Source of the DNA: a virus
DNA length: 46,037 nucleotides
Virus record (IMG/VR): IMGVR_UViG_3300025127_008154
Span: 1-46,037 of that record
Reading direction: 5' to 3' (one strand)
The position numbers and the translations under genes were made by a program. Shown here piece after piece: positions 2,842-39,830 of the stretch (position 1 is the first letter of the stretch; every line of letters starts with the position of its first letter). Below the pieces are notes generated by a model, which saw nothing but the letters and a program-made list of their open reading frames with translations, was not told the origin of the DNA and ran no database searches.

Positions 2842-2853
2842 TATTTACCTCAA

Positions 2854-5561: not shown

Positions 5562-5569
5562 TTATTCTC

Positions 5570-10426: not shown

Positions 10427-10428
10427 TT

Positions 10429-11385
10429 TTAGTCCTGCAATATAAATGTTTCAGTTTTATTTTTTATTATACTGTCATTATTTTTAGCATAAAACCTTAT
10501 TTCTATCTTTAACTTAAGAAATTTATAGCTATTTAAGTAAAAGTCATATGTCTCTTTTTTAAGTAAATTAAAATAAGCTTTCTTTTTATTTAAATTATTT
10601 TTAATTTGTTTCTTACTAAAGTCTGCTTCTTTAATAACATATTCAATACTTTTTTTAGATGATATAAACTTAATGCTTTTTATATCGATATCGTATTTTA
10701 GAATTGAGTCATTTAATAAATTAACTTCAAGCAATAAATTATTTTTATTATATATTAAATTAGACTTTATACTAATGTCTTGCTTACCTATATTGTTTAG
10801 TTGTATTGTTTCCGTAGAACCTCTATTAACTTCATAGATACTATAAAAAATCGGATCTAAATTTTGAAATCTTTTGTTTTGTTTTATTTGAGAAACTATT
10901 TTTTTTAACTTTCCAGAGCTTAAATTTGCCTTATATTTTTTATAGTATTCATAAATTAATTCTTCTTCAATTTTTATATTTGACAAATTTACAAGATTTG
11001 TTTGAAATGAAAAATATTTTACGTTATATAAAATACTACACTTTTTATTGCGAGATAAATTTTTAATTGTTGGAATATTATTTTTAATCGAGTTTTCGTT
11101 ATCTTTAAAGTTAAACAACATTTCTTTATCATTGTTTTCTAAAACAACAACAAAATAATTTGTAAAAAATTCGTCTTTAGTAGCTAACTGCCTTTCTATT
11201 ACCAAGCCATGTAAAAATGAAATATCACTTTTTATATTTTTTGCATCGTCTAAAAAGACATCGCTTAAATTATTTTTATTTTGAGCTTTAAAAATAGTAT
11301 CTTTAATTGCATTGTTTTTATTAACAGTAACTTTAAGATCAGGCACGTTGTTTACGTTATTTAAATTTAATAATAAATTACTCAT
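10429..11385 (-). CDS. Lys/Asn-rich protein in tail gene string, unrecognised
   Basis: A 318-residue protein with very high Lys and Asn content and many short beta-like segments. The N-terminus repeats Asn-Leu and Asn-Val, and a Lys-rich helix-like stretch lies near residues 150-175. No enzyme motif, signal peptide or membrane segment is visible. It begins 8 bases after the 11394-12191 gene ends, and ends 2 bases before the 1618-residue protein starts, which suggests it is made together with that protein. A virion or assembly role is inferred only from position. Confidence 0.55.
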   Translation of the reverse strand: MSNLLLNLNNVNNVPDLKVTVNKNNAIKDTIFKAQNKNNLSDVFLDDAKNIKSDISFLHGLVIERQLATKDEFFTNYFVVVLENNDKEMLFNFKDNENSIKNNIPTIKNLSRNKKCSILYNVKYFSFQTNLVNLSNIKIEEELIYEYYKKYKANLSSGKLKKIVSQIKQNKRFQNLDPIFYSIYEVNRGSTETIQLNNIGKQDISIKSNLIYNKNNLLLEVNLLNDSILKYDIDIKSIKFISSKKSIEYVIKEADFSKKQIKNNLNKKKAYFNLLKKETYDFYLNSYKFLKLKIEIRFYAKNNDSIIKNKTETFILQD

Positions 11386-11393
11386 AGTTTACT

Positions 11394-12191
11394 CTAAAAT
11401 AAAGGATTTGTGTTTATATTAAGCTTTCTATTACCAAAGCTAATTTTTGCTTCGCCGACAGCTTCTTCAATACTATTTACTTCATATACGTATATACTTT
11501 TAGTAAACGCTGCATTATTAGGTATGTTTAGGACTAATTCATTTTGTAAATCTAATGCTGTTAAACTTTCTAAACTTGTGTAGCCAAACTCAAATGTATT
11601 AATAATTCTATTTTCATTTATATTTGCTTCCATCAAGACTTTAATTTTATTTTCTCTGTTAACTTTTTTTGTAGCAGAAAGAAGATTAAAAAGAAAACCG
11701 TAACTACTTGAATAGCGAGATCTAAGTGAAATTAAAGTATCAAACTCTAATCTAATATTATTAATAGATACTATATTACCTTCATCATTTAAAACTTTAT
11801 TATATTTAACTGTAGTATTTTTCAAATCAAGAAGATCAAAAATATTTGAGTTTTTAGAGATAGAAATACTTTGTTCATTTTCAGTAAAAATTCCTACGTT
11901 AGCTGAAAGAGCTCTTAAAAAATTTTCTCTTCTTTCTCTTTCATCGCTGATCATATCAAGAATTTCTCTCATTTGATCGCCGCTAAAAACAGAAAATGGA
12001 TTTCTGGAAATATCTGCACCTTGATATAATAAAGTTCTTATACCATTTGCTATTTGATCTTCTGATATACCTGTGTCATCATTTGTGCTGTTGTTTGTAT
12101 TGTTGTCTGTATTATTGTTATTGCCTGTATTATTACCCGTGTTATTATTGCTTGAGTTATTTCCAAAGTTTAGACCGTATAGATTTAGCAT
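11394..12191 (-). CDS. Virion protein with Asn/Thr low-complexity N-terminus
   Basis: A 265-residue protein. Residues about 10-40 are almost entirely Asn, Thr, Ser and Asp, coded by repetitive AAT/ACA codons (near 12075-12165). This gives a flexible, polar linker after the short start MLNLYGLNFG. The rest is compact: a helical part with RNPFSVFSGDQM near residues 60-72 and an Arg/Glu-rich helix, then beta-like segments. The repetitive codon run is a likely site of length change by slippage. No known family is recognised. It sits between two structural genes, so a small tail or baseplate protein joined through a linker is a reasonable guess. Confidence 0.55.
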   Translation of the reverse strand: MLNLYGLNFGNNSSNNNTGNNTGNNNNTDNNTNNSTNDDTGISEDQIANGIRTLLYQGADISRNPFSVFSGDQMREILDMISDERERRENFLRALSANVGIFTENEQSISISKNSNIFDLLDLKNTTVKYNKVLNDEGNIVSINNIRLEFDTLISLRSRYSSSYGFLFNLLSATKKVNRENKIKVLMEANINENRIINTFEFGYTSLESLTALDLQNELVLNIPNNAAFTKSIYVYEVNSIEEAVGEAKISFGNRKLNINTNPLF

Positions 12192-12199
12192 TGCAATTA

Positions 12200-13237
12200 T
12201 TATTCCTCAAATGATATAGTAAAAATATTAGCAAAACCAAAATAAGACTGAATTTTAATTTGCTGATCTGATTGTAAATATCCAGGCTCAATAATGTTCT
12301 TTTCTATTCTATATAATTTGCCTGCAGAAAATACTCTTCTAAACTTTCTTTTTCCTTGTCTATCAATATATTGATTATCACCATGGTCAATAATTGCTAA
12401 CTTTTCAATTTTACTTTTAAAAGAATCTATACTGTAAATTTGAAAAATATACTTTGGATCTAACTTTTTTTTGGTAAAATTAAAATATTTTTTTTGTATT
12501 TTAGGATTAGTATCAATATTTTTTATAGAGTCATTAATTGCAGTTTCTATATTTTCTAAATTATTAACACTGTTTTTAACTAATATTTTGCTAATTTTTT
12601 GTTGGGTATTTGTATAAACACCTAATTGTGATCCATTTAAATTTTCTGGCGGCAAATAAAGAAAATTTGTTTTATTACTAAATCTAGCATCATCTTTTAT
12701 AAGCTCAAATTCAGAAAGAAAAACATTTTGCTTTAACATTGTAGGTGGAAGTTCAAAATCAAAGTCTTTTTTTTCTAAATAAAATTGTGATAATAATTCA
12801 GGCTTTTCTGAATATATTTGCATATTTTGTAAATCTAATGTGCCTGTTGTAAGTAAAATATCTTTTTCTTTTAAATTATCTTCAATTCTTTTATAAAGAT
12901 CAGCTGACGCTGTTAAGAATGTTTGCTCATCTTCATTTAATAAATCGTACGCAAAAAAACTAGAATTGTCTTCTGTTGATAAGTCTATATTATAAAAACC
13001 GCCCCTGTTTAAGTCCAATTCAGGGTTAACAAGGTCTTTTACATTATGAGAAGCTTCAAAACGAAAATTATGTGTGCCGCTTAAAAAAACATTATTTTTG
13101 TCACTATGATAAATAGTACTTGTATCTGAAAACGTTGCATATTTAAAGCGAATATCATGTAGTGACATTTGCTTATAACCTTCAGGTGTTAAAATAAAGT
13201 CAATTACTCTATTTTTTTTATCAAGTATTCCTGCCAT
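12200..13237 (-). CDS. Virion protein with recurrent N-terminal motif, paralogue of 2854-3603 head
   Basis: A 345-residue protein. It begins MAGILDKKNRVIDFILTPEG, then a Leu/His/Asp stretch, an FKYATFSD strand and a Tyr-His. The same layout is seen at the start of the 2854-3603 protein (LTEKGR, then FAFADDE and Tyr). I associate this opening with structural proteins of large phages, so a virion role is likely. The C-terminal third contains RKFRRVFSAGKLYRIEKN and ends with aromatic strands, with no enzyme motif. Its ATG shares a base with the stop of the 741-residue gene before it (TAATG). Which particle part it forms is unknown. Confidence 0.65.
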   Translation of the reverse strand: MAGILDKKNRVIDFILTPEGYKQMSLHDIRFKYATFSDTSTIYHSDKNNVFLSGTHNFRFEASHNVKDLVNPELDLNRGGFYNIDLSTEDNSSFFAYDLLNEDEQTFLTASADLYKRIEDNLKEKDILLTTGTLDLQNMQIYSEKPELLSQFYLEKKDFDFELPPTMLKQNVFLSEFELIKDDARFSNKTNFLYLPPENLNGSQLGVYTNTQQKISKILVKNSVNNLENIETAINDSIKNIDTNPKIQKKYFNFTKKKLDPKYIFQIYSIDSFKSKIEKLAIIDHGDNQYIDRQGKRKFRRVFSAGKLYRIEKNIIEPGYLQSDQQIKIQSYFGFANIFTISFEE

Positions 13238-15462
13238 TATGACTCCTCAAAGAAGGTTGTTATTTTGGCATTAAAGTCGCTATTAAAAGATAAAGTTCCG
13301 GTTTGATGAAGCGTATTACCTTCTGTATCATAAAACTTTTTCTCAATAGGATAAATTACAACATTATCTCCTGTTTTAAAATAGCTCGTATAAGGCCTTT
13401 GTTTGTAAATATCAGAATAATTTCCATAGCTATTATAATTAAAATGTATTTTTTCAGATAGCAAAGATCCTGTTAAAGAAATATCATTATTTTGCATTTC
13501 TACAGCCTTTAAATGAGTACCCCTATTACCATTCGAATAATATCCTGCAACAGCTCTGTCGATCTTATTGTTACCTGTAGATACAACTATTTTATCAATA
13601 GAGCTGCTAGCATAAAGCTGTATTGGTAAAGTATCAAATTTATCTGTATTAAATTTGTCACCAACAATACCTGTTCTTAAGTTTTTACTTGTTAAAAATC
13701 TTTTATCAAACTCAAACTTAGGATAATTATTATTAATTGGTGTCCCAACTAAAATTATTTTTGCTTTATCAAGAAAAGAACTAAAGCTTTGATTGGAAGC
13801 TGCACCGAAGTTAAAATAAAAGTTTGAAAAGGATGAATATCCTATTAATAGTTCATCTTCTGGATAAAGAATATAAGGAACTTGTCTATTGTCATTATCT
13901 AAAACGTTATGGACTATGTTAGAATTATAAATAGAATTATATTGCTTTATTACAGAAGAGTAATTTTCACTGTTATTTACTAAAGATTTATTAAGGTCCT
14001 TTCCTAATAAAGTTCTGCTTCCTAAACTATTACCAACAAAAAAGTAATCGCCAGAAGAAAAACCATTCAAGTGACTTAAATTTTCATTAGAGATAGACTG
14101 TCTTACTGGAACTTCTGCTTGAACTTCAAAAGTGTTTTCTGTTAAAGTAACTTGAATATGTGATCCAAAATCGGTATAACTTAAATTACCTTCGCTAAAG
14201 TCGTCAGCTTGTTCTTTTAATTTTTTAAAGTCGTAAGTATTTTTTGTTCCTATTAGATCACCGTCAAATATAGCAGAACTTGATCCTGAAATTGCTGTTA
14301 CAAATTTTGCATATGTTACCAGATCTCTTACTACATCTTGATTAAATTCTCCTGTAAGATTATGAACAACATTGTTTTGATCGCGCGTTTTAATTGATTC
14401 TGAGTCTACATTGTTTAGTTTTCTTTTTGATTTTATTTTTTTATTATTTAATATAAAAAAATTAGACGTTACTGCGAACGGTAAAGGAAAGTTATCTGTA
14501 GATCCGGCAGTATTATTAATCATGATAGACAAACGATTGGCTCTTTCACACTTAAAAATTATTTTTTCTAAAAGAAAAGGTTTGTCAATATAGTTTGACA
14601 TTTTTAAAAAATTTTCGTCTAAAGGATCATACTTTTTAGAAAAAGGAAAACCAAAATTTGATATAGGTTCAGCAATAGAACCGCTTATAAACTGAAACGC
14701 GCTTGTCCGGTCAGGTCTATTCCAGGATGATGGTGAAAATGGTATTGATAGTCTTTCTGGTTTATTTTGTAATTCTGTTATGTTATAAGTATGAAGGCCG
14801 CCAATCTGTGCTGGATTAATAATTCTATCTGATCCATCTCCTGGTGCAAATCCATTAAATCTAGTCCATTTATTGCTTGAAAAATTATAATAGCTAAATG
14901 TATTAATTAGTATGCCAGCACTTAAAGTTTCAGTTTGACAAACTTCTTGTGTAGATTTAGAATTTGACAAATCAATTTCAATTTTTTCTCTAGAGAGTAA
15001 GCTTTGTTGAAAATTATCTGATACTAAAGGGCTTGTTCCACTTACATAAAACTCTGAATCACTGACTATTTCTATTTGATTTTCTTCTTTGTAAGGATTA
15101 AAATCTATATTTAATCTTTCTTTTCGCCTTTCATCTTTTAAGAATTTTTGAGAAATAACACTGTTTTTTGAAAATACAGTTCCTACTGTATTTGGTGTAG
15201 ATACAATATCTCCATAAAAGCTATCACTTAAAGGCAACCCTTCACTTATATTTTTAATGGCATAGTTTTGACCAAAAACATAGTTGCTAGAAGAATCATC
15301 AAATTTTATATTAGTGTTTACTAGTTTATGCCCATTAATTGATAAGTCCAAGGGTATTGTGCCTTGTAAGTTATCAATTTCCTTTAACTGATTTTTAGGT
15401 TGGAGCGATATTGCACCTGATTTTCTTATGTTACCTTTTCTTTTCTGTCTTATTAAAGGCAT
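13237..15462 (-). CDS. Large beta-rich virion protein (tail/baseplate periphery)
   Basis: A 741-residue protein, basic at the start (MPLIRQKRKGNIRK) and then Ser/Asn-rich with many beta-like segments. A segment around residues 265-325 (NFGFPFSKKYDP, then FLLEKIIFKCERA) and a later one around 535-600 (PYILYPEDELLIGYSS, then KIILVGTP) look like jelly-roll strands of the kind seen in receptor-facing or decoration proteins. No catalytic motif is visible. The start follows the 372-residue gene by 3 bases. I infer a baseplate-peripheral or fibre-linked protein; the domain type needs structure comparison. Confidence 0.6.
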   Translation of the reverse strand: MPLIRQKRKGNIRKSGAISLQPKNQLKEIDNLQGTIPLDLSINGHKLVNTNIKFDDSSSNYVFGQNYAIKNISEGLPLSDSFYGDIVSTPNTVGTVFSKNSVISQKFLKDERRKERLNIDFNPYKEENQIEIVSDSEFYVSGTSPLVSDNFQQSLLSREKIEIDLSNSKSTQEVCQTETLSAGILINTFSYYNFSSNKWTRFNGFAPGDGSDRIINPAQIGGLHTYNITELQNKPERLSIPFSPSSWNRPDRTSAFQFISGSIAEPISNFGFPFSKKYDPLDENFLKMSNYIDKPFLLEKIIFKCERANRLSIMINNTAGSTDNFPLPFAVTSNFFILNNKKIKSKRKLNNVDSESIKTRDQNNVVHNLTGEFNQDVVRDLVTYAKFVTAISGSSSAIFDGDLIGTKNTYDFKKLKEQADDFSEGNLSYTDFGSHIQVTLTENTFEVQAEVPVRQSISNENLSHLNGFSSGDYFFVGNSLGSRTLLGKDLNKSLVNNSENYSSVIKQYNSIYNSNIVHNVLDNDNRQVPYILYPEDELLIGYSSFSNFYFNFGAASNQSFSSFLDKAKIILVGTPINNNYPKFEFDKRFLTSKNLRTGIVGDKFNTDKFDTLPIQLYASSSIDKIVVSTGNNKIDRAVAGYYSNGNRGTHLKAVEMQNNDISLTGSLLSEKIHFNYNSYGNYSDIYKQRPYTSYFKTGDNVVIYPIEKKFYDTEGNTLHQTGTLSFNSDFNAKITTFFEES

Positions 15463-15465
15463 AGA

Positions 15466-16584
15466 TTACTCCATAGTATCACTAAATGCAATTGAATCTA
15501 GTCCTTGCACTTTTGATCTATCATATGTATAGCCAGTACTATATTTATCTTCAAAAATTTTAGGATATTGATTACTTATTGTAATATTATTTTCTGTATA
15601 GTATTTTATTATTCCACTATTGTTTAATGTAATGTAGCTTGAATAATCTATTTCTAATTTTAATGTATTATATTTTTCCTCATATGGGACAATAATAGTA
15701 TTATCATTAGAAATCCATGACATATCTAAAATTTTGTTATTATGAACTTTGCCAGCGCTAGCAGTTTTAGTAAACTTTTTAGTTAATTTATCATATTTTT
15801 CAACAAAATTATTGTTTATTATAGTATTACCTTGACTTATAAAAGCATCTACATTGTCTTCGTAAAATTCTATTCCTTTATCATCATATTGTATTGTTTC
15901 TTTAATAGAAAAGGATCTCATTCTAATGTCATTAACTGTTAAAGATGACTTAAAAGACTTTTCATTAAATTCAAAAGTAGATGTTTCTCTTATGTAAAGC
16001 GGTTCAATTAAGCCATTTTTAGATATTTTATTAGGACTGCTATAATATTCAACTGAAACACTATTGTTTAAGTACATTTCATCTAGCAAATTTAAATCAG
16101 GAGGCGATTTAAAAATAGTAGGAATTTCTTTATACTTTCCCTTATCTAACAAAAGCATATCTGTTTCAAGCGAAGAAATTGTATTACTTGTACCAAAGCT
16201 TGTAATATCATTTAATAAAGAAGACTTAATTATACCTTTTCTAGTTTCTAGTTTAGTATTTGTTTTTTCTGTTTTTCTATTAAGAACATTTATTTGTTCT
16301 TTGTCACTAAATTTTGTTTCTTCTAAAACAAATTGCTGTATTGTTTCCGGAACTTTAGAATCAAATCTAGTGTTTATATTTCTATCTGCAAGAGGAATAG
16401 ATGTCTTTTTTTCTGATATTGTTGGGGAAGCAAATACCGATATAACAAGATCACCAACCTGTTTTTTTCTTTTTCGTCTTGTTTCTATAGAATCGTTAGA
16501 TCCTTCTCTATAAGGTAAACTACCTTCAACTCTAATGGTATTTGAACTCCTAGCTGGGCTTATTATTTTGCATGAAGTTGACAT
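15466..16584 (-). CDS. Unrecognised virion-associated protein
   Basis: A 372-residue, Ser/Thr/Lys-rich protein. It opens MSTSCKIISPARSS and has a basic RRKRKKQ cluster near residue 40. Residues about 90-130 are charged and likely helical, while the C-terminal half, with YIRETSTFEF and WISNDNTIIVPYEEKYN, reads as beta strands. No known domain, signal peptide or membrane segment is seen. It follows directly after the large tail-protein-I-like gene, a place where P2-type phages encode fibre or fibre-linked proteins, so a baseplate-to-fibre connector is possible. That is inference from order only. Confidence 0.5.
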   Translation of the reverse strand: MSTSCKIISPARSSNTIRVEGSLPYREGSNDSIETRRKRKKQVGDLVISVFASPTISEKKTSIPLADRNINTRFDSKVPETIQQFVLEETKFSDKEQINVLNRKTEKTNTKLETRKGIIKSSLLNDITSFGTSNTISSLETDMLLLDKGKYKEIPTIFKSPPDLNLLDEMYLNNSVSVEYYSSPNKISKNGLIEPLYIRETSTFEFNEKSFKSSLTVNDIRMRSFSIKETIQYDDKGIEFYEDNVDAFISQGNTIINNNFVEKYDKLTKKFTKTASAGKVHNNKILDMSWISNDNTIIVPYEEKYNTLKLEIDYSSYITLNNSGIIKYYTENNITISNQYPKIFEDKYSTGYTYDRSKVQGLDSIAFSDTME

Positions 16585-21948: not shown

Positions 21949-23781
21949 TTAAGTATTTACACTAATGTCAAAAGAAGGATATTTTAATTCAAAAATACTT
22001 CCTTCAGGCGGATATAAAACGCCATCTTTTATATTATTTTTAAGATTAATAACATTATTACTATATACTCTAGTGAAATCATCATCTGCTAATGCTATTG
22101 ATACTAAATTTTCTGGTAAAGTTGAAAGAGAAGTTACGCCTTGCGTATTTATAACAATATTAACAATGTCAGATAAAACTATTGGCTGATCGATATTATA
22201 TGATTCTAATCTAAGATTACTAATTAGTCTATTAATAACTCTAGCAATTACAATATCAGTATTTTCGCCCACACCTACTTTAATATCCAGATTTATAGCA
22301 ATATTAATAATTTTAGTATCTACAATTTCAAATATATCACCAATTAATCGAAATTCATTAAGATACTTACTTAAATTGTTTTTAATTGCATCATTTGCTT
22401 GTATTAAAGTTCCGTCTGTATCTTTACAAATAATATGAAGATATTTTGACAATATTGCATCTTCGTTATTTCTTATAGCAGCTCGATGAATTCTTCCAAA
22501 AGGCGCTGGAAGCGTATAGATTCTTGCCATAATGTCATGATAATTTACAACTCTATTTTGCATTTTCATATGAGTAGGAATTAATTCTTGTAGTTCGTCA
22601 ATATTAAATCCTTCTGTTCCGCCTACAGCATTTTCTAAATTTCTAACGTCTAAAGTTTCTAAAACTTGATCTACTATAGAAGCAGTTGCACCATCTGGGG
22701 ATGAAACATTAATTGTTAAGACTTCATTTATGTCACCTGCAGAAACATTATGTGAAACACCACCACCATGCATATATCTTACTGATATTGTTGTATTTCT
22801 AGGTGCTATTCCAAGCGTATTTGTTCTTAACAAACTTGCAGGATCTATAGAAAACTTATTAATATATGTTTTTCCATAAAGAGGCAATGCAGCATCAGAT
22901 GGATCTTTTAATATTTCATCTTCTAAGTCTTGTCCGTTATCAGATCCAAATCGTAAAACTGTTACACCACTTTCCGAATCATCTTCTTTAATAAACCTTC
23001 TAAGTGCTGGTTTTACTTTTAAGTTAAAAATTTCAGATGCATTTGATCTTTCACCTTTTAAAAATATAGTATCTTGAGTTAAAAATTCAACTTCAAAAAA
23101 CTCATTATTATCTGTGTCTAAAACACTTAAAACTTGTGTTACACCAGAGTTACTAAGTTCTACTGTAGGAAATTTAATAAATTCTGTTCCAAATGTAAAT
23201 GTTTCTGTAGTTATATTGCCTGATACACACAAACCTTTTTTAGAAATAATAACTTTTGTTGGTTTATTATCATTATCTCTTTCTGAAACTATAAAATTAT
23301 CATAAAGATTATCAGAAAAATCAACATCTTCCATTAGCGTAAAACTAGTTGTCGAAGAGTTAACAATGGTATTTGTTTTTATTGTTAATAATTGCGTAGA
23401 CTCTAGAGATATTCCTTCAGAATTATTATTATCTTCAAAAGCATCTACTTCTATAAAAAAACTAACATCCACCGAAGCTGGTGATGGCGGAACTGCTTTT
23501 ATACCTGCTCTTCTAATATGTCTAAGAATATTATCTCTTTCAGAGGCAAGAGAAGGATCTAATTCGCCAAATTGGTGATCCATATAATAAGAAAGAGCGT
23601 CACCAGTTATAGCAGCAAAATCTAACAGCATACCACCAAGCGAAGATTCAGAAAAATCATTTATTTTATTAGGAAAATATGCCCTAGCGTAACCTAAAAG
23701 CTCGCTTCTATAGTCAGTAAATTCTTTAAGAAGATAATTTTTTTCTCTTACATTTTTTAGTTTGTTTTTAATATCGGCCAT
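21949..23781 (-). CDS. Baseplate wedge protein, gp6/gpJ-like
   Basis: A 610-residue protein of the baseplate J / T4 gp6 family, which forms the ring of the wedge around the hub in contractile tails. Typical marks: residues 30-95 with FAAITGDALSYYMDHQ, an ERDNILRHIRRAG helix and PPSPA; a central J domain; then GGTEGFNIDELQELIP followed by DIMARIYTLPAPFGRIHRA near 390-440, and the C-terminal alpha/beta repeats (IAINLDIKVG, then QPIVLSDIVNIVINTQGV). It starts 7 bases before the gp25-like gene ends in map order, i.e. right after it in transcription, as in P2 (W then J) and T4-like phages. No damage is seen. Confidence 0.9.
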   Translation of the reverse strand: MADIKNKLKNVREKNYLLKEFTDYRSELLGYARAYFPNKINDFSESSLGGMLLDFAAITGDALSYYMDHQFGELDPSLASERDNILRHIRRAGIKAVPPSPASVDVSFFIEVDAFEDNNNSEGISLESTQLLTIKTNTIVNSSTTSFTLMEDVDFSDNLYDNFIVSERDNDNKPTKVIISKKGLCVSGNITTETFTFGTEFIKFPTVELSNSGVTQVLSVLDTDNNEFFEVEFLTQDTIFLKGERSNASEIFNLKVKPALRRFIKEDDSESGVTVLRFGSDNGQDLEDEILKDPSDAALPLYGKTYINKFSIDPASLLRTNTLGIAPRNTTISVRYMHGGGVSHNVSAGDINEVLTINVSSPDGATASIVDQVLETLDVRNLENAVGGTEGFNIDELQELIPTHMKMQNRVVNYHDIMARIYTLPAPFGRIHRAAIRNNEDAILSKYLHIICKDTDGTLIQANDAIKNNLSKYLNEFRLIGDIFEIVDTKIINIAINLDIKVGVGENTDIVIARVINRLISNLRLESYNIDQPIVLSDIVNIVINTQGVTSLSTLPENLVSIALADDDFTRVYSNNVINLKNNIKDGVLYPPEGSIFELKYPSFDISVNT

Positions 23782-23788
23782 CTTAACC

Positions 23789-24271
23789 TCAATTAGATAA
23801 TTCTAATTTTAAATTTAGTGTTTTTTCTGAGTTATTATTAATTTGATACGTGATGTATATATTTAAAATTTTTGCATCGCTAGTCGTATTGTCATAATTA
23901 GAAGAAAATCCTTTAAGTTGCACAAATGGCATATATGTTGCTACAGCAGACTGTATTCTATCCATTGCAACTTGATCAATATCTTCTTTCCCTAAACCAT
24001 GTAAAACATCAGAAAGATTAACTCCATAATCTGGAAAACCTAATCTTTCTCCAGGCTTAGTTAAAACTAAAGTTTTAAAATTATCTTCTAGTTGATCTTC
24101 AATTTTAGTGTTCATTTTAAAAAGCCCATTACCAGAAGAATTTATGTCTAAAGGCAAAGAAAAACCTAAAGGTAATGCTTCGCTTTCTTTATTAGCTTTT
24201 TCAAGCTGCTTTTTAGCTCTGTCAACTGTTTTTCCTGAGCTTTTAAAGTTAAAATCTTGACGAACTGCCAT
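23789..24271 (-). CDS. Baseplate wedge protein gp25/gpW-like
   Basis: A 160-residue protein of the GPW/gp25 family, a conserved wedge subunit that contacts the sheath and starts its polymerisation. The hallmark lies at residues 60-90: LEDNFKTLVLTKPGERLGFP and then DYGVNLSDVLHG. The family is called lysozyme-like for historical reasons; in phages its role is structural. The 35 residues before the core are charged and helical, a little longer than in P2 W. An AGAGG ribosome site six bases before the ATG, in a 27-base gap, indicates strong translation. Neighbours on either side are baseplate genes. Confidence 0.92.
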   Translation of the reverse strand: MAVRQDFNFKSSGKTVDRAKKQLEKANKESEALPLGFSLPLDINSSGNGLFKMNTKIEDQLEDNFKTLVLTKPGERLGFPDYGVNLSDVLHGLGKEDIDQVAMDRIQSAVATYMPFVQLKGFSSNYDNTTSDAKILNIYITYQINNNSEKTLNLKLELSN

Positions 24272-31103: not shown

Positions 31104-31685
31104 TTATGACAATATGTTATACAACATTGAGTAGTAATTTGTAACATTAGGTTGAAAAATTTCTACTTCTATATTGTTTTCTTTAAACAAGTTAATATTT
31201 AGATAGTCAGATCCAGAAGGCCCTGATATGTAATCTTTTGCATTAAGGCTTTTGCAAATATTTAACAATAATTCTGACTTTTTACCGCTTACATTCAGTT
31301 CAGATGCAAAAACTATAGGGGTATTAATATTTAGTTTTTTTCTACACCATTCAATAGATGACATATTAATATCAATAAGTTTATTATATTTATATATTTC
31401 TTCTAAGTTAACATTTAAATTGTTTCTTAATTTTGAGATAACTTTTCTTCTCCAATTAAGAACTTTATCATTTGTTGTTATTTCATTTAATAATTTTTTA
31501 TTTTTATCAACTGGAAAACCAAACCATTCATCTTTGCTATTTTTATTTTTTATTTTATTTCTATTGTGAAAATAATTTTTTCTGTAATTAACGTTATCTA
31601 AAATAACAAAAATATCAGATTTTTTCATTTTTTGAAAAAATCCTTCATAAGGAAAATGCTCTGGCTGATGTATTGATATTTTCAA
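31104..31685 (-). CDS. WbqC-like protein, glycan biosynthesis
   Basis: A 193-residue protein with the opening ISIHQPEHFPYEGFFQKM, then DIFVILDNVNYRKNYFHNRN, which is the pattern of the WbqC family. WbqC-like proteins are found in O-antigen, capsule and flagellar glycan loci; their reaction is not firmly established, with a link to amino-sugar modification. I place the start at a TTG (31685-31683): a GGAG site lies five bases ahead, the family motif starts right after it, and the start follows the upstream stop by one base. An ATG 33 bases earlier would overlap the PIG-L gene by 32 bases. It is one of three genes (with PIG-L and FemAB-GNAT) that look like a unit. Very AT-rich. Confidence 0.8.
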   Translation of the reverse strand: MKISIHQPEHFPYEGFFQKMKKSDIFVILDNVNYRKNYFHNRNKIKNKNSKDEWFGFPVDKNKKLLNEITTNDKVLNWRRKVISKLRNNLNVNLEEIYKYNKLIDINMSSIEWCRKKLNINTPIVFASELNVSGKKSELLLNICKSLNAKDYISGPSGSDYLNINLFKENNIEVEIFQPNVTNYYSMLYNILS

Positions 31686-31686
31686 T

Positions 31687-32328
31687 TTATCTCCATTTAA
31701 GTAATTTATAACATTCATAATAATTAAAGTCTAAATAAATAAAATTTTCAAAAAAATAAGAGTTGTTTAGAAAATTTTCAATACCATTGTCTTGTAAATA
31801 GTTTCCTACTGATGAATACGATTGTTCGTTTTCTATATTATAATTTACTACTAATTTTTTTTTAAAGTCAAGTTCTAAGTCACTAATTCCAACCCAGAAA
31901 TTTGGATTAAACGAAGAAGAGCTAGGAGAGTATATAGACAAAAATCTGTCTGTGTATTTAAATAAGCCTTTAGCAATTTTATAAACAGCAGTATGATCTG
32001 TGTGACAATCTTCAGCATCATGTGTTACAATATCAAATCTAATATTAGAATTAAAAGTAATAATATTATAAAATTTATCTTTTACATCGTCAAAGTCTGA
32101 TGTGAGTCTTCTTTGATTAAAATTTAAGTTTATATAATCAATATCTTTATTTAAATATTTTTTTATTTTTTCCAAATTGCTTTTCCAAATACTCTCTTTT
32201 TTAGACCAAGTAGATGCAATAATAATTTGTATCTTGTCATACTCTTTAAAATATTTAAATAAATAACCCAAGCATGAAATTTCAAAATCATCAATATGTG
32301 CCAAAAAAAATATTAGTTTTTTACTCAT
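31687..32328 (-). CDS. PIG-L/LmbE-family N-deacetylase
   Basis: A 213-residue protein with both zinc-site motifs of PIG-L deacetylases: AHIDDFE at residues 10-16 (His11, Asp14) and DCHTDHTAV at 107-115 (His112). These enzymes remove an acetyl group from the N-acetyl of GlcNAc-type or related amino sugars, giving a free amine. Length is in the normal range. It overlaps the FemAB-GNAT gene by 8 bases (ATGAGTAA) and is followed by WbqC, so the three are probably translated as a set. I infer that an N-acetyl on a sugar is removed so that another acyl group can be put there. The substrate could be a free, nucleotide-linked or polymer sugar. Confidence 0.85.
   Translation of the reverse strand: MSKKLIFFLAHIDDFEISCLGYLFKYFKEYDKIQIIIASTWSKKESIWKSNLEKIKKYLNKDIDYINLNFNQRRLTSDFDDVKDKFYNIITFNSNIRFDIVTHDAEDCHTDHTAVYKIAKGLFKYTDRFLSIYSPSSSSFNPNFWVGISDLELDFKKKLVVNYNIENEQSYSSVGNYLQDNGIENFLNNSYFFENFIYLDFNYYECYKLLKWR
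31691..31694 (-). promoter_or_regulatory. Ribosome binding site that fixes a TTG start
   Basis: GGAG read on the minus strand lies inside the last sense codons of the PIG-L gene, five bases before the TTG at 31685. Its spacing supports that TTG over the earlier ATG at 31718, and it implies coupled translation of the two genes. Confidence 0.6.
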
Positions 32329-33334
32329 TTTTTAAACCAAAAAACTTTCTTTTATACAAATTTGTTGTTTCTTCATAAGTTAAGTCTTTATTTAAACTAA
32401 TTTTCCATTTATCATCATTAACAAAGGCAAACATAGGCTCAGGACTAAAATGTAATTTTTTCTTATACGAGAAGCTTCCTCTGCCACCATTTAAAAATAA
32501 TTTATTTTTATTGTTCATTATAGCATATTTTTTTGATTCTTCTAAAGCGTCTAAGTATATTAGATAGTTGATGTTACTATCTTTTAGGTCAAAGCAATCA
32601 GCAAAAGCCAAAAAAGCTTCATTGTTGTTAAAAACTATATTGTAATTAGCTACTATTTTTTTATTTCTGTAAATAACTTTATTTAAACAACTGTAATTTT
32701 TAAAAAAATAATTATTTATCTTTAAGTAAAGTTCACTATGTTCGTCCCAAGAATTAACGACACCTCTTTTTTTAAAAAAATTTATTTTATTACTTAATAT
32801 AGTATTTATAAATTCTTTATTGTATAAATCACTTTTAATTTTAACAAATGAATACTCGCTTTTTTTATTAAAAGCTCTTTTTAATTTGTCTCTTTTCTTT
32901 TTTGATAAAGTTTTATTTAAAATATTTTCAAAGCTAAAGTTTATAACATTATTAAAAATCCAATTTTGGTTATAAGGTACATCGTATTTTTTATATTCAT
33001 TAGGTAAAAAATTAACCGGATCTTTATAAATCGATGTAAAAGAAAATTTAATGTTATTTTTTAAAAAATAACTTATTGATTTATCTACTAAGTCTTTAGA
33101 CGAAGGAATTAAATTATAATCATTGTATGGTAAGTTTCCACCATAAAAAAAAGCTTTGTTATTTTTTATGACAGTCCTAAGTATTTTTTTCTCTGATTTA
33201 AAAAACATAAAATGATCTGGATTATAATAGTCATTTAAAATTTTTTTAAAATTAAAGTTTGAGACAATTAAATTAGTTTGATTATTATTTAATAACAAAT
33301 TTTCGCATATTTCTTTTTTGCAAATAATTTTCAT
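32321..33334 (-). CDS. FemAB/GNAT-type acyltransferase (BioF2-like)
   Basis: A 337-residue protein that looks like the double-GNAT acyltransferases of the FemAB/BioF2 group. Support comes from the central KKKRDKLKRAFNKKSEYSF helix-strand, the IVANYNIVFNNNEAFLAFAD strand pair, NYLIYLDALEESKKYA, and the LFLNGGRGSFSYKKKLHFSP loop near 282-300. Such proteins transfer acyl or aminoacyl groups to amines and are frequent in polysaccharide loci. Next to a PIG-L deacetylase the natural guess is re-acylation of the amine made by it. Composition is extreme in AT and the protein is full of Asn, Lys, Phe and Ile. The acyl donor is not predictable. Confidence 0.75.
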   Translation of the reverse strand: MKIICKKEICENLLLNNNQTNLIVSNFNFKKILNDYYNPDHFMFFKSEKKILRTVIKNNKAFFYGGNLPYNDYNLIPSSKDLVDKSISYFLKNNIKFSFTSIYKDPVNFLPNEYKKYDVPYNQNWIFNNVINFSFENILNKTLSKKKRDKLKRAFNKKSEYSFVKIKSDLYNKEFINTILSNKINFFKKRGVVNSWDEHSELYLKINNYFFKNYSCLNKVIYRNKKIVANYNIVFNNNEAFLAFADCFDLKDSNINYLIYLDALEESKKYAIMNNKNKLFLNGGRGSFSYKKKLHFSPEPMFAFVNDDKWKISLNKDLTYEETTNLYKRKFFGLKNE

Positions 33335-33337
33335 TTT

Positions 33338-34519
33338 TTAAATATTTAAACATTTTTCAATTATATTATTACAATTTTCTTCAATAGAAATTAAGTTTTT
33401 CCAAGGCATTTTATTTACATTTATTTTTAATGCATTTTCAAGTGCTAAATTTAAGCTCGTCGAACTATTTTGATCATATTCTTTAGTAAATTGCAACCAA
33501 TTTTCTGGAACAAAAGAAGTCTTACCGATTTTTTCAATGTAGGGTTTATTATACGTTTGACCTAACAAGCAGTAAGAGTTACAAGATAAGGACTCACCAA
33601 AACATCTAGAAGTTCCTAGCGTAGGCTGATGGGGTAGATCTACGTATGGATTCATAACTGTAAATTTTGAGTACGTCAATATGTCGCATAAAAATTTAGG
33701 ATTTACATAAGTTGTATGCAATAAATTAATTTTCTTTTTATTGGCGACTTGAATAATTTTATTATAATAGCTGTAGTCGTCTATGTTACCATATAAAACT
33801 ATTATATAATCTTTAATTAATTCAGGATCTACTTTTTCTAACCACTCGAGTTGTCCTTTCCACCAAACAATTGTGCCTACTATTGAAATAATATTATAAG
33901 ACTTATAGTTTTGTTTTTTTCTAGTATCATTTGACTGATTTGTAAACTTTCTTCCTCCAGAAGTGTAAAATTCATAAAATTTAAAAGCATAGTCTTCGCC
34001 ATGATTCTTACAAGGAGTATAATTCATATCATTTATGTTTATTTTTTTACCTGACTCTTTGAAGAGCTTGGCATCAAAGGCTCTTAATTTTTTTAGTGAA
34101 TCAGACTTAGAAATTATTAAATCATATTTTTTATTAAAATTGTTTTTTGGAGAAGTTAGGTTACCGTTTTTAACATTAAATATATAACACTTTTTGTTAT
34201 TTGAAATTCTATTTCTTGAGTCAAAATAACACATGTCTATATTTGCATTTTTCATAATTTTTGATATATATAAAGGCATTTCTAAAGCTTCTAGCTCATA
34301 TTTCATTGGAGAAAAATGAGAAAATAAAATGCTTATATTTGAATCATTTCTATATTCGTAATCTTTAAATTTAATATCGTGTATTATATCATTAAATGCA
34401 TGATGTCTATATTCTTTTTGCAAAGGCAAAAATACTTTTTCAATTTTATTATTCCAGACTTGATTTAAAGGTTCAATATTTTGTAATAAAAAATCAATTG
34501 TTTTTTCTGAATTATTCAT
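33338..34519 (-). CDS. Probable GT-B glycosyltransferase
   Basis: A 393-residue protein without membrane segments. The C-terminal half reads as a GT-B donor domain: ISIVGTIVWWKGQLEWLEKV near 210-230, then YIIVLYGNIDDYSYY, a helix, NLLHTTYVNP, and LTYSKFTVMNPYVDLPHQPT followed by GTSRCFGESLSCNSY. The Glu of CFGESL may correspond to the family donor-site Glu. The N-terminal half is unusual, with HFSPMKYELEALEMP near 70-84. Calling it a sugar transferase is likely, but the CAZy family is not evident. It follows the CMP-sugar synthetase-like gene by 2 bases, so the two may share a sugar. Confidence 0.65.
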   Translation of the reverse strand: MNNSEKTIDFLLQNIEPLNQVWNNKIEKVFLPLQKEYRHHAFNDIIHDIKFKDYEYRNDSNISILFSHFSPMKYELEALEMPLYISKIMKNANIDMCYFDSRNRISNNKKCYIFNVKNGNLTSPKNNFNKKYDLIISKSDSLKKLRAFDAKLFKESGKKININDMNYTPCKNHGEDYAFKFYEFYTSGGRKFTNQSNDTRKKQNYKSYNIISIVGTIVWWKGQLEWLEKVDPELIKDYIIVLYGNIDDYSYYNKIIQVANKKKINLLHTTYVNPKFLCDILTYSKFTVMNPYVDLPHQPTLGTSRCFGESLSCNSYCLLGQTYNKPYIEKIGKTSFVPENWLQFTKEYDQNSSTSLNLALENALKINVNKMPWKNLISIEENCNNIIEKCLNI

Positions 34520-34521
34520 GT

Positions 34522-35202
34522 TTATATTTCTTTAATAAATTTTAACTGCCAGTGATCATCGACTTCCATTTTTGTTTCTTCAATAAAAGGATAAATATTA
34601 TGTCCTAGCCAAGGAAAAGGATTTAAACCATTTTTTGATAAAACGATATTTCTTCTGCATATAAAAAAAGAACCGTTATTAAAAAAAATATCGCCTGCAA
34701 AATTTTTATCATTTGAATTTTTTGGAACTTCAATAAAATTATTTAAAAAATTGTTTTTTATTTTAAATGCTCTATAAGGGTTGAACATATTAAATTTTGA
34801 AACTGATTGTATGCTGTCGTAGTCTTTGTTGTCTTTTAATATTTTAATACATTTTTCAATATTATGACAACTTGAACCTAAGCTATTACCTAACAGAAAT
34901 ACAATTAATGAAATTTTTTTCTGGAAAAGACTTTCAATATGGTTTATGGCATGTATCATTACATCATGGTGAGAAGCTTTGTCTGTAGAAAGGTAACTTG
35001 GTCTGTCAATTATTAGTACATCTTTATCAGTGTTATTTTTTATATATTGACAGTCTGTCGTTATAAAAATTTTTTCAATAACTTTGCTTTTTTTTACTTT
35101 ATCAATAGGATGTAAATATAAAGGTTTGCCTTTAACAAGGGTAATATTTTTATTAGGCACGGACTTGCTACCAGCTCTGGCAGTTTGAATAGCTACTATC
35201 AT
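34522..35202 (-). CDS. CMP-sugar synthetase-like cytidylyltransferase (NeuA family)
   Basis: A 226-residue protein resembling acylneuraminate cytidylyltransferases, which use CTP to make CMP-sialic acid or similar CMP-nonulosonates. Seen: the nucleotide loop ARAGSKSVPNKNI at 8-20 (usual ARGGSKGIPxKNI), DRPSYLSTDKASHHDV at 66-81, NNGSFFICRR at 175-184, and EVDDHWQLKF at 213-222, matching the family's IDID-type end. Odd: the normal LQPTSPLR strand is replaced by FLLGNSLGSSC near 102-112, so the sugar pocket may differ or activity may be altered. It overlaps the HAD gene by 4 bases (ATGA). No NeuB-type synthase is in the window, so the sugar would come from the host or from elsewhere in the phage. 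Confidence 0.8.
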   Translation of the reverse strand: MIVAIQTARAGSKSVPNKNITLVKGKPLYLHPIDKVKKSKVIEKIFITTDCQYIKNNTDKDVLIIDRPSYLSTDKASHHDVMIHAINHIESLFQKKISLIVFLLGNSLGSSCHNIEKCIKILKDNKDYDSIQSVSKFNMFNPYRAFKIKNNFLNNFIEVPKNSNDKNFAGDIFFNNGSFFICRRNIVLSKNGLNPFPWLGHNIYPFIEETKMEVDDHWQLKFIKEI

Positions 35203-35594
35203 AATATTTTTTTAACTTCTTCTATACTAAAAAAATCTTCCCAACTTTTAAATCTATAAGCTCTATCATCTACGTAAAATAACGCCCTAGGCTTTTCTGC
35301 TGTTACGTCTTTAACAAATTGAGACATATTGTTTTTATGTAACCACTCCCAGATTAATTCTTCGCCTGTTTTGTTATCTACTAAAGGCCTATCTTTTCTT
35401 GCTTTTGCTGAGTATATAATTATGTTATACTTTTTTGACAAAACTTCTAAAGCACTAAATGCTCCATCTACTGGTAAGTCATAAATTGTTCCATCATGAA
35501 ATCCTTTGGTACATCTATGAATTACACCATCAAAGTCAATGCCTATATTTGTATGCTCGTCTGGAAAAGATTTAAAGTTTTTTTTAAACGTCAT
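35199..35594 (-). CDS. Small HAD-type phosphatase
   Basis: A 131-residue cap-less HAD protein. Motif I is IGIDFDGVIH with the nucleophile Asp20 and acid Asp22; motif II Ser62 in IIIYSAKA; Lys101 in AEKPRAL; motif IV Asp109-Asp110 in YVDDRAYRF. The set is complete, so it should be an active phosphohydrolase. Proteins ending in DDRAYRF are frequent in phages without known substrate. Its position between a sugar-phosphate isomerase and a CMP-sugar synthetase is like KdsC in CMP-Kdo synthesis or GmhB in heptose synthesis, so it may remove phosphate from a sugar before activation. Overlaps the isomerase gene by 11 bases. Confidence 0.8.
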   Translation of the reverse strand: MTFKKNFKSFPDEHTNIGIDFDGVIHRCTKGFHDGTIYDLPVDGAFSALEVLSKKYNIIIYSAKARKDRPLVDNKTGEELIWEWLHKNNMSQFVKDVTAEKPRALFYVDDRAYRFKSWEDFFSIEEVKKIL

Positions 35595-36192
35595 TTTTTA
35601 TACCTAGAGACCACGGGTCTTTTCTTTTAACTTCATCAATAATTGAAGGACAAATAGATCCAGCTTCGTGTATTAGCTGATAAAAAAGGATCAAGGTTAA
35701 AACTTCACATGTATGAAAAAATTTACAATTTAAAACAACTTCGTTTATTTCTTTTTCAAGTCTTTTCGAAGTTTGACCTGAAATTAGCGCAGTTTTAAAG
35801 TTTGAAGCTTTTGCCCAAGTTAAAGCTCTGGTAATGTTTTTTGAATTACCTGAACATGATAAACCTATTACCATTGATGAATTAATATCTTCAGAATCAG
35901 TTGTTGATTCTAACCATTTTAAAAATATATTTTCGTATCCATTGTCATTTGCATATGAAGTTATATGTCCGCAAGAATCAAAAGACATTATTACTTTATC
36001 TTTTATTAAGCGAGTGCAATCTGTTGCACCATGTGCTGCAACAAAATGAAGTCCTCCATTTCCGATTAAATATACTTTTTTTGAAGATAAAAAATCATTT
36101 GTTAAGTTTTTCCATTCTAGCGTTTCGAGAGTTTCTTTAAATTTATTTTCAATATTTTCAAAATCAATCAATTTTAAATTCCTTGACAACAT
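35584..36192 (-). CDS. SIS-domain sugar-phosphate isomerase, GmhA-like
   Basis: A 202-residue single SIS domain protein. GNGGLHFVAAHGATD at 44-58 and GLSCSGNSKNI at 110-120 form the phosphosugar site. HTCEVLTLILFYQLIHEAG at 160-178 matches the C-terminal helix of GmhA, with Glu163 and His175 in likely catalytic places. GmhA changes sedoheptulose-7-phosphate into a heptose phosphate; the related KdsD makes arabinose-5-phosphate. The family alone does not decide. The ATG at 36192 overlaps the GT29-like gene by 29 bases; a TTG at 36171 behind an AAGG site would cut that to 8 bases and is an alternative start. It begins a run of isomerase, phosphatase and cytidylyltransferase. Confidence 0.8.
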   Translation of the reverse strand: MLSRNLKLIDFENIENKFKETLETLEWKNLTNDFLSSKKVYLIGNGGLHFVAAHGATDCTRLIKDKVIMSFDSCGHITSYANDNGYENIFLKWLESTTDSEDINSSMVIGLSCSGNSKNITRALTWAKASNFKTALISGQTSKRLEKEINEVVLNCKFFHTCEVLTLILFYQLIHEAGSICPSIIDEVKRKDPWSLGIKNDV

Positions 36193-36928
36193 TACTATAG
36201 TTTTCTTTACTAAATTTACTCATATGTAATAATTTTAACAAAAAAGGATCAAATTTACAAATATTGTTTTCCAATAATATATTTTTTGTATAATTCCACA
36301 TATTTTTATGAATATGTCTTTTTGATAAAAAAGCTTTTTCAGATTCTTCAAATTCAGTAATACCATACTTTTTTTCTATTCCAGCTTCTCCGCCCCAGTA
36401 TCCTTGTAAGACACCTGATAGGTAAAAACTAAAACCTGTTATATATAGCTCTTTAGGTTTAAAAGATAATAAGTCTAGTATTGCAGAAAATCCTGTAGTA
36501 GGTCTGCATTGAATTTTTTTACTAATTTGATTATAAAATTCATAATCAATCATTCTTAATTTTAAATTTGAATCTTTTATTATTTTTAAAGTATCTTCTT
36601 TTACTAAAGGGCTGAAATAATTTCCTGTTGAAATACCTTGCATATTTGAGTTAGGATGTGTACAAATCCATTCACAATTTAAACTTTTTAAATAAGATTT
36701 GTCTAAATATCCCCCGCATTTTACATCGTTAAGAAGACTATTGTATAGAATGTTAGTTTTTTCTCCTAAGAAATTTTTATAATTTGATATTAGTTTTGGT
36801 CCTATATTAGGCCTTACAACAATATCAAAACTATCAATTTTTTTACCGTGATCACTTTTTAATAAAGTCATATAGTCAGCTGGGCCTACTATTGCAACTT
36901 TTTTATTATGAATATATTTATCAAACAT
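36164..36928 (-). CDS. GT29 sialyltransferase-like protein
   Basis: A 254-residue protein with two blocks that recall the sialyl motifs of family GT29. Residues 10-40 (KKVAIVGPADYM, then GKKIDSFDIVVRPN) resemble motif L, and 142-168 (RPTTGFSAILDLLS, then ELYITGFSFY) resemble motif S. A conserved-looking His-rich stretch, SKRHIHKNMW, follows near 202. GT29 enzymes transfer sugars from CMP-sialic acid, and a CMP-sugar synthetase-like gene is three genes on. I start at ATG 36928, which lies after the upstream stop; an earlier ATG (36988) would add a hydrophobic 20-residue lead and overlap the upstream gene by 47 bases. The lead may be mistaken for a membrane anchor. Confidence 0.7.
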   Translation of the reverse strand: MFDKYIHNKKVAIVGPADYMTLLKSDHGKKIDSFDIVVRPNIGPKLISNYKNFLGEKTNILYNSLLNDVKCGGYLDKSYLKSLNCEWICTHPNSNMQGISTGNYFSPLVKEDTLKIIKDSNLKLRMIDYEFYNQISKKIQCRPTTGFSAILDLLSFKPKELYITGFSFYLSGVLQGYWGGEAGIEKKYGITEFEESEKAFLSKRHIHKNMWNYTKNILLENNICKFDPFLLKLLHMSKFSKENYSNVVKEFKID

Positions 36929-37750: not shown

Positions 37751-39103
37751 TTAAGTTAAATTAGCTGTTGCTCTAAAACCTACTTTATATTTAGTTCCTT
37801 CTAAAAAAGGATAATTGTTATTTGTAAGATAATGATAAAGAGGAGACTTATAATTTTTATTTTTTAGTTTACTATTTATATTTAAAAATTCTTGTACTAA
37901 TTTTCTATCTAGAAAAGGATACCTCACTTCAATACCATAACTTCCGCCTACAGACTCATCTTTATAAGCAAAGTCTATCATTCTATAACCGTTGAAATTT
38001 TTCCAAGGAAAATACTTTGTCATGTCATTTCCATAATACCCAGCAATATCACAGTGTTCAAATCCTGGTATTGGTCTTCCTTGAAATCCATAGTCACTAT
38101 ACACTTCGTCTGAGCCGTGCCCAGACATGTAGATTTTATATCCATTTTTTTTAGCATGAGAGCATATAAAAGATGTTCCTACCGCTCCTTTATCATTTTG
38201 AACAATATATCTTTTATTATTCATTACATATTCAGATTCATAAAACTCAGAGTTTTCAAGTATATATTTTTTATGTCCGACAAAGTCATCTTTTGACATA
38301 AAAAATAAGTTTGCTTTATCTTTATCTAGCAAACTATGTCTTTTTTTTAATAAGTTTAAATCTTCATCAGCACGAACACTATAAGTTGTAAAGTTAGCTT
38401 TATTTTTTTGTAAGCTTGAAACTATACAACCACTATCATATCCGCTGCTTAAACCTACAAATGTTTTTTCACAAGTATTTTTTATTCTTTTTTTAATTGA
38501 CTCATCAAATAGTAAACACCAATTATCAAAACTATTAATATTTTGATTTAAATTAAAGTTATATATTACGTCTTCTTTTATGTTAAAAGAATTTAGATCT
38601 ATTTCGTAAATAGTATTAGGTTTAATTTTAAATGTATTTTTTCTATTAAAACCTAATCTTAGATTTGATGATAAATAGGAAGAAACAGCAAATTTCTTAC
38701 CTTGTAAAGAGATCCAGCAAGGTTTTGTAGCAAAAGTATCAGATGCAACTAGTAGAGAATTATTTTTTTTATCATGTGAAACTATAGCAAATTCACCATC
38801 TAATTCTTTCCAAAGTCTATTCTGAAAAATATTATTTAAGCAGTATCCGTCTGACTTACTTGTACTATCAAAGTCTTTATAATTGTATATTTGACCATTG
38901 AAAACGGAAATTTGTTTTTCTGATATGAATGGTTGTTTTGTTTTTTCACCAGTAATATGTAATAAATTATGAATCCACGTAATATTTGATTCTTTATCAA
39001 AATAGCTATTTGTTAAATCAGGTCCACGAGAAAGTGAAAATTTATTTATAAAATCTATTTTTATAAGACTTGGATCTATATTAGTAACAATAAAGCTACA
39101 CAT
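37751..39103 (-). CDS. Asparagine synthase-like glutamine amidotransferase
   Basis: A 450-residue protein of the AsnB family. The start is set at ATG 39103 because it gives MCSF, placing Cys2 as the N-terminal nucleophile after Met removal; an upstream GTG (39115) would bury it. The class II amidotransferase half has FNGQIYNYKDF at 69-79 and LDGEFAIVSHD at 101-111. The synthase half has the ATP loop LSSGYDSGC near 218-226 and SGHGSDEVYSDYG near 319-331. Such enzymes occur in polysaccharide and antibiotic loci, where they amidate carboxylic acids. Here a uronic or nonulosonic acid of the glycan is a possible target. True asparagine synthesis is less likely in this setting but not excluded. Confidence 0.85.
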   Translation of the reverse strand: MCSFIVTNIDPSLIKIDFINKFSLSRGPDLTNSYFDKESNITWIHNLLHITGEKTKQPFISEKQISVFNGQIYNYKDFDSTSKSDGYCLNNIFQNRLWKELDGEFAIVSHDKKNNSLLVASDTFATKPCWISLQGKKFAVSSYLSSNLRLGFNRKNTFKIKPNTIYEIDLNSFNIKEDVIYNFNLNQNINSFDNWCLLFDESIKKRIKNTCEKTFVGLSSGYDSGCIVSSLQKNKANFTTYSVRADEDLNLLKKRHSLLDKDKANLFFMSKDDFVGHKKYILENSEFYESEYVMNNKRYIVQNDKGAVGTSFICSHAKKNGYKIYMSGHGSDEVYSDYGFQGRPIPGFEHCDIAGYYGNDMTKYFPWKNFNGYRMIDFAYKDESVGGSYGIEVRYPFLDRKLVQEFLNINSKLKNKNYKSPLYHYLTNNNYPFLEGTKYKVGFRATANLT

Positions 39104-39104
39104 A

Positions 39105-39830
39105 TCAAATACCACATCTTACAATCATTGTTTTTTTACAATTTTCAATTGCGTCTGTGTCATTAACAATTTGTACATCTTTAACATTAAATCCAAAAAA
39201 GTTTAACATGTTTACAAATTCAATTTCGTTCCATTCTCTAACATGCTCTAACTTATTTGAATACATACAATCAAGCCCTCTTTTTAAGTCTCTTTCAGGC
39301 GTACTAAAAAATATATTTGTTGATTCATTGGAGATTTGTTTAATTACATTTAACATTATAGAAGGATTATATAAATGCTCGATAACATCAAAACAAAGTA
39401 TATTACTTAATTTTACATTTGAAAAAATATCTAATAAATCTTTTGAAGAAGTTTCTAGATCATGAACAATACATTTGACATTTTCTTTAATGTAACCTAA
39501 TTGACTTGCAATTGAAAATGACTCATTTTGATCAATACAATAATAGTCTTTTGTAAATCCATTAGAAAAATAAAATTTATTTTGCTTTGTTAAAGTTCCG
39601 CATCCTATTTCTAAAACTGGATCTATTGCACTTAAAATATATTCTTTCGAATATCTATAACAGTCTGCTTGATCCCATGCAGAATTTGTTATTCTTCCTA
39701 TATCCCAATAATTACTACTTCTATTAGATGTAATAGTATTATTTTTAGTTTGTGATTTATAACCTTTTTTTATAAAAAAGCTATTTACATCACCTTCAGA
39801 AACAACTTTTATATCAGAATCTTTTAACAT
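39105..39830 (-). CDS. SAM-dependent methyltransferase
   Basis: A 241-residue class I methyltransferase. VLEIGCGT at 72-79 is the SAM glycine loop, DYYCIDQN near 95-102 the acidic second strand, and NILCFDVIEHLYNP near 142-155 the post-motif II pattern seen in small-molecule and sugar methyltransferases. The first 45 residues are variable, with SNYWDIGRITNSAWDQA before the fold. It ends 1 base before the AsnB-like start, so the two are tightly coupled. Methylation of a sugar hydroxyl or carboxyl group of the glycan is inferred; a DNA methyltransferase is unlikely because no DPPY-type motif is seen. Confidence 0.8.
   Translation of the reverse strand: MLKDSDIKVVSEGDVNSFFIKKGYKSQTKNNTITSNRSSNYWDIGRITNSAWDQADCYRYSKEYILSAIDPVLEIGCGTLTKQNKFYFSNGFTKDYYCIDQNESFSIASQLGYIKENVKCIVHDLETSSKDLLDIFSNVKLSNILCFDVIEHLYNPSIMLNVIKQISNESTNIFFSTPERDLKRGLDCMYSNKLEHVREWNEIEFVNMLNFFGFNVKDVQIVNDTDAIENCKKTMIVRCGI

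Follow-up and report, generated by a model that had tools for sequence, protein, structure and literature searches.

CMP-activated donors are, to our knowledge, mainly ulosonic acids, namely sialic acids, Kdo and their kin. Known cytidylyltransferases (CTs) of the CTP_transf_3 family act on 2-keto acids, activating a hydroxyl of the phosphate-free sugar, and glycosyltransferases of family GT29 use CMP-sialic acid. Phosphate is hydrolysed from sugar phosphates by HAD enzymes, whereas DHQS-type cyclases eliminate it from the open-chain form. In bacteria, the CMP-Kdo pathway (KdsD-KdsA-KdsC-KdsB) draws on isomerase, phosphatase and CMP-sugar synthetase superfamilies that recur in the viral cassette described here, and the activation of a free sugar acid by CTP may be listed as a further likeness. 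The cassette differs from that pathway in carrying a GmhA-like SIS protein instead of KdsD, a HAD protein that is not KdsC and no KdsA; its CT scores far below the KdsB, NeuA and PseF cut-offs, and a GT29-like enzyme replaces the GT30-type transferase. GT29 sialyltransferases have been reported from marine proteobacteria in a study whose main text mentions neither viruses nor phages (PMC5811610). The viral enzyme shares with them the sialyl motifs L, S and VS and the fold, but it comes from T4-like viruses and its identity to them is low. The literature searched does not describe the cassette, most subscription journals lying outside the scope of that search.

The window, that is, the whole stretch of DNA analysed, is an IMG/VR record of 46,037 bases that is catalogued as linear and may be a fragment. 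Baseplate-wedge proteins encoded at 21949-23781 and 23789-24271 indicate a myovirus of T4-like build, in agreement with the original prediction that a phage makes these enzymes. Despite these recognisable baseplate proteins, eight of the larger proteins encoded at 1624-16584 match no PHROG family at E 1e-3. A minus-strand run that starts near 45.9 kb and reaches down to 27 kb encodes many glycan enzymes, including GT2, GT4/GT1 and GT8 glycosyltransferases, methyltransferases, an asparagine-synthase-like protein, PIG-L and WbqC, and the four-gene cassette lies within it (Table 1). The asparagine-synthase-like amidotransferase of this run occupies 37751-39115. The four predicted genes proved real and correctly placed, and their ends overlap by 29 nt (GT29-like/SIS), 11 nt (SIS/HAD) and 4 nt (HAD/CT). 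The ATG start of the GT29-like gene sits within a longer TTG-initiated open reading frame that extends to 36988. A gap of 2 nt separates the CT gene from the glycosyltransferase-like gene directly downstream, which is probably on the same transcript. Further downstream in the run, 31104-33334 encodes a WbqC family protein, a PIG-L deacetylase and a protein of 337 aa that belongs to no family, which may modify the sugar. The results given below, from family and fold assignments to residue conservation, gene order, the mutual exclusion of HAD and cyclase and the scarcity of PEP synthases, are computational.

Table 1. Genes of the cassette and the adjoining downstream gene in the window.
Feature	Coordinates	Strand	Length	Basis
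GT29 (sialyltransferase-like) glycosyltransferase	36164..36928	-	254 aa	Pfam PF00777, profile, model, sialyl motifs
SIS-domain sugar-phosphate isomerase-like protein	35584..36192	-	202 aa	GmhA models/structures; distinct virus subfamily
Small HAD-type phosphatase	35199..35594	-	131 aa	phrog_1238, HAD motifs
CMP-sugar cytidylyltransferase (CT, CTP_transf_3)	34522..35202	-	226 aa	PF02348, model, invariant residues
Glycosyltransferase-like protein	33338..34519	-	393 aa	Weak GT1 match (E=0.049), below cut-off

The GT29 sialyltransferase-like protein and the NeuA/KdsB-type cytidylyltransferase of the original prediction were both borne out by Pfam searches and structure models. The transferase scored 27.4 bits against Glyco_transf_29 (cut-off 23), and a profile built from 11 viral homologues matched the human and rat sialyltransferases ST6Gal1/ST3Gal1 in the PDB at E=1.8e-6. 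Its structure model, of modest confidence (pLDDT 67), best matched human and rat GT29 enzymes (E=2.8e-5, TM about 0.4-0.5), and the best 21 PDB matches were all GT29 enzymes. The key residues of sialyl motifs L (D, N), S (T/S-G) and VS (catalytic His, H205) are kept in 10-11 of the 11 viral proteins. Profile and model point to a GT29-like fold with sialyl motifs L, S and VS, and use of a CMP-sialic acid or similar donor is predicted. Scanning viral contigs with the window GT29-like protein alone returned no relatives; these were reached through the CT and SIS proteins. Comparison of the GT29 profile with that of a second transferase type found in L005 and L001 gave a probability of 45%.

The CT scored 46.7 bits against CTP_transf_3 (cut-off 22.6), and its model (pLDDT 90) gave Vibrio cholerae NeuA, A. 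caviae CMP-Pse synthetase, Neisseria meningitidis NeuA and KdsB as top structural matches. It has the CMP-sugar synthetase fold and the nucleotide-binding motif R-x-G-S-K-(x)4-K-N, and R9, GSK 11-13, K18, E213 and D215 are invariant in 12 of 12 relatives. The E213-x-D215 pair near the C terminus resembles the Mg-binding acid pair D209/D211 of the N. meningitidis enzyme (PMC2901514), an equivalence judged by position, with Glu for Asp at one site. The best NCBIfam model was PseF (74.9 bits against a cut-off of 205.7), and KdsB models gave 16.7-27.5 bits. Assignment as a KdsB, NeuA or PseF equivalog was rejected, as no curated NCBIfam cut-off was reached; with scores so far below the PseF and KdsB thresholds, its sugar cannot be named. 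The LLQPTSP stretch of NeuA reads LLGN in the viral protein, so that the sugar pocket probably differs.

The CT clade is confined almost wholly to viruses. A scan of viral contigs recovered 13 loci at 36-57% identity, and 84,980 prokaryote (GTDB) genomes yielded only three weak loci at 26-30% identity, near NeuB; these scans depend on short exact patterns, and absence from them is no proof. The GenBank phage records hold almost no relatives of the CT, the GT29-like enzyme or the HpcH/HpaI-like aldolase discussed below. In the phylum to which L016 (a Sphingobacterium MAG) belongs, the SIS scan of 395 genomes returned ordinary SIS proteins only, the best at 80 bits. With prokaryotic CT relatives at just 26-30% identity and only ordinary SIS proteins in these 395 genomes, the searches turned up no bacterial counterpart of the cassette. 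In two cassettes, the CT has a cupin domain fused to its C-terminal end (L022:5990-7126 and L023:7343-8476). In L008, L009, L011, L012, L013 and L014, a CT of the same clade lies amid several radical-SAM genes and next to a gene for a protein of about 300 aa, and in L003 the CT reading frame runs on into a homologue of that neighbour (9980-11620). The radical-SAM loci belong to a different virus group and probably reflect different biology.

The SIS protein is closest to GmhA, matching GmhA-type NCBIfam models at E=6e-16, far under the equivalog cut-off, and GmhA structures at E=3e-15; pairwise scores were 56 bits to GmhA and 5 bits to KdsD. It shares with this phosphoheptose isomerase the SIS fold, H61, an acid at the E65 position (Asp in the cassette proteins) and S119/S121/S124. 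However, in an alignment with E. coli GmhA as reference, 55 of 55 cassette SIS rows, many of which derive from overlapping or duplicate loci, have Tyr in place of H180 and Leu in place of S55. Other viral GmhA-like proteins retain H180 in 18 of 19 cases and S55 in 19 of 19. A canonical GmhA was rejected on the catalytic pair E65/H180, and KdsD on both its score and its architecture, the viral protein having a single SIS domain where KdsD has SIS plus CBS domains. Because the catalytic His of GmhA is Tyr in all rows, the protein may bind a phosphosugar rather than isomerise it.

The HAD protein gave no family in Pfam or NCBIfam searches and matched phrog_1238 at E=5e-12, a PHROG family named phosphoheptose isomerase. 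Seven viral homologues share its DxDGV, Ser, Lys and DD motifs. Identification as KdsC was rejected on a negative alignment score, and as GmhB on the absence from the alignment of the Cys/His zinc-binding loop. Its motifs suggest a predicted phosphatase of the small type, which could serve another purpose. The original prediction had likened the enzyme set to KdsD, KdsC and KdsB; that likeness holds for the CT, which shares the KdsB fold, and fails for the SIS protein, which is nearer to GmhA, and for the HAD protein, which is unlike KdsC.

To place the window genes among relatives, we defined a cassette set of 34 distinct viral loci, the window included, with SIS proteins of at least 45% identity. 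A CT gene lies within 6 kb of the SIS gene in 32 of the 34, against 1 of 26 control loci with distant SIS proteins, and in the two cassette loci without one the SIS gene is about 2-3 kb from a contig end. A GT29-like gene is nearby in 21 of the 34. The SIS-HAD-CT order of the window recurs in L005, L021 and L054; L001 and L002 have SIS-SDR-cyclase-CT with a more distant SIS protein, and in three other viruses (L003, L008 and L010) the CT gene adjoins a diverged SIS gene. Aminotransferase genes are common near SIS (class III in 22 of 34, DegT-type in 15, at least one in 29), and the window proteins scanned include none, which means that the window pathway may differ from most.

The slot occupied by HAD in the window is filled in most relatives by a DHQS-like sugar-phosphate cyclase, usually accompanied by an SDR. 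HAD was found in nine cassette loci, the cyclase in 24, both in none, and neither in one, which lies near a contig end; the exclusivity gives a Fisher p of about 2e-7 with kinship among loci ignored. None of the 26 control loci has either the cassette HAD or the cyclase. The exchange takes place at one position, CT-[HAD or SDR-DHQS]-AT3-SIS, as seen in L042, L052 and L070 compared with L039, L046 and L066. On the SIS tree, the swap requires about seven changes, at least three of them on well-supported branches; the three supported independent pairs all go opposite ways, too few for significance alone. It is hard to explain this pattern otherwise than by HAD and the cyclase being alternatives in one pathway, and a functional link among the cassette genes is supported. 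The partner enzymes are related to AroB and resemble TIGR04425 (24 viral loci in marine virus glycan operons, e.g., L022:7795-8856); the L022 cyclase scored 397.7 bits against a TIGR04425 cut-off of 400. No such cyclase was found in the window.

We consider that the four genes probably constitute a modular viral operon, in its phosphatase form, through which a CMP-activated sugar is made and transferred to a glycan. The order of steps, the substrates, the acceptor and the benefit to the virus are deduced from homology and gene order. The SIS protein would act on a phosphorylated sugar, and HAD would hydrolyse the phosphate, a step that the DHQS-like cyclase, usually with its SDR, would take over in most relatives. 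The CT would then join CMP from CTP to the phosphate-free product. The GT29-like enzyme would pass this product on to an acceptor that probably belongs to the infected cell, as part of its lipopolysaccharide or capsule, or else is a glycan of the virion. Phosphate removal before CMP transfer is common to the HAD and cyclase versions, which argues for the order SIS, dephosphorylation, CT, GT29. No PEP-dependent synthase would take part within the module. In a more specific form, which we put forward only tentatively and regard as less likely than the general one, a GmhA-derived SIS protein without the GmhA base feeds either a phosphatase or a cyclase, and the NeuA-like CT yields a CMP-sugar or CMP-carbocycle for GT29, again with no PEP synthase.

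The original prediction held that only the PEP-using synthase (KdsA/NeuB type) was missing here. Among 39 related virus records, which are fragments of up to 165.6 kb, NeuB was found in four (L001, L005, L021 and L068) and a DAHP/KdsA-type synthase in one (L081). In all five, the gene group of the synthase includes a further CT: the synthase stands directly beside it in L001, L005, L021 and L081, and in L068 a more distant CT homologue lies about 3 kb away within the NeuB group. Neither NeuB nor KdsA was detected in cassette contigs of 156.6 and 165.6 kb. The 46-kb window record, a fragment, has no NeuB, and its Pfam-scanned proteins include no DAHP/KdsA-type match, though a synthase may lie elsewhere in this virus. 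The PEP-dependent synthase seems to belong to a separate module outside the cassette, contrary to the idea that it is the single absent step. Since these synthases are each grouped with another CT, it is unlikely that the SIS-linked CT serves them.

Known CTs act on 2-keto acids, and the module visibly makes none, which speaks for a keto acid that comes from the host or from another locus. Because the CTs and GT29 enzymes known so far work with ulosonic acids, the chief rival is a route in which a host or distant viral PEP synthase provides an ulosonic acid or its phosphate (Kdo-8-P, NulO-9-P), with HAD acting like KdsC, the CT like KdsB or NeuA, and the GT29-like enzyme as an ulosonic acid transferase. 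This is possible, though we judge it rather unlikely. The CT fold, that of NeuA, CMP-Pse synthetase and KdsB, is consistent with such a route, as are the CMP-sialic acid donor of known GT29 enzymes, the NeuB genes downstream in the two closest relatives (L005 and L021) and the fragmentary state of the window. Against it stand the confinement of PEP synthases to five of 39 records, each with another CT in its group, their absence from the two long contigs, the exchange of HAD for a cyclase, and the fact that SIS and HAD are not KdsD and KdsC. Accordingly, the earlier proposal of a compact route to a CMP-activated acidic sugar and its transfer stands in its broad sense of a CMP-sugar synthetase with a transferase, and its Kdo- or NeuB-type form is not well supported.

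A keto acid could also arise from pyruvate and a sugar aldehyde, with an HpcH/HpaI-type aldolase elsewhere in the virus giving the CT a 2-keto-3-deoxy sugar acid. HAD, CT and an HpcH/HpaI-like aldolase occur together in L006, adjoining a GT29-like gene, and in L007, adjoining a possibly sialyltransferase-like gene; the aldolase-like protein is flanked there by the same CT clade and HAD family (L006:10717-11430 and L007:10724-11440, 74% identical to each other). It was absent from the GenBank phages searched and restricted to these two records among viral contigs. Both lack SIS and the aldolase role there is itself predicted, the window has no such gene, and SIS-bearing relatives give just two weak hits below cut-off, which makes this source improbable for the cassette.

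A heptose route, the competing reading in the original prediction, would have SIS as GmhA and HAD as GmhB producing a heptose phosphate for activation by a nucleotidyltransferase. GmhA is indeed nearest to SIS, and the phrog_1238 name points the same way, but the H180 and S55 replacements in all 55 rows, the missing GmhB zinc loop, the lack of a heptose kinase among 20 window proteins scanned and a CT that is not of the sugar-1-phosphate nucleotidyltransferase type make it very improbable. Least likely of all is a chance adjacency of separate bits of the glycan cluster serving different sugars: such clusters are rich and mosaic in these viruses and some SIS loci have no GT29-like gene nearby, but the CT linkage and HAD/cyclase exclusivity of the cassette loci have almost no counterpart in the controls.

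Under the favoured reading of a modular operon, carriers of GT29-like enzymes now extend to viruses, and TIGR04425 cyclases gain a defined pathway context. A viral CMP route free of a PEP synthase would, if true, represent a new class of CMP-activated donor. The combination of a CMP-sugar synthetase and a GT29-like enzyme with a phosphatase or a cyclase that can replace one another, in most cases with no PEP synthase, suggests viruses that may place unrecognised sugars or carbocycles on surfaces.
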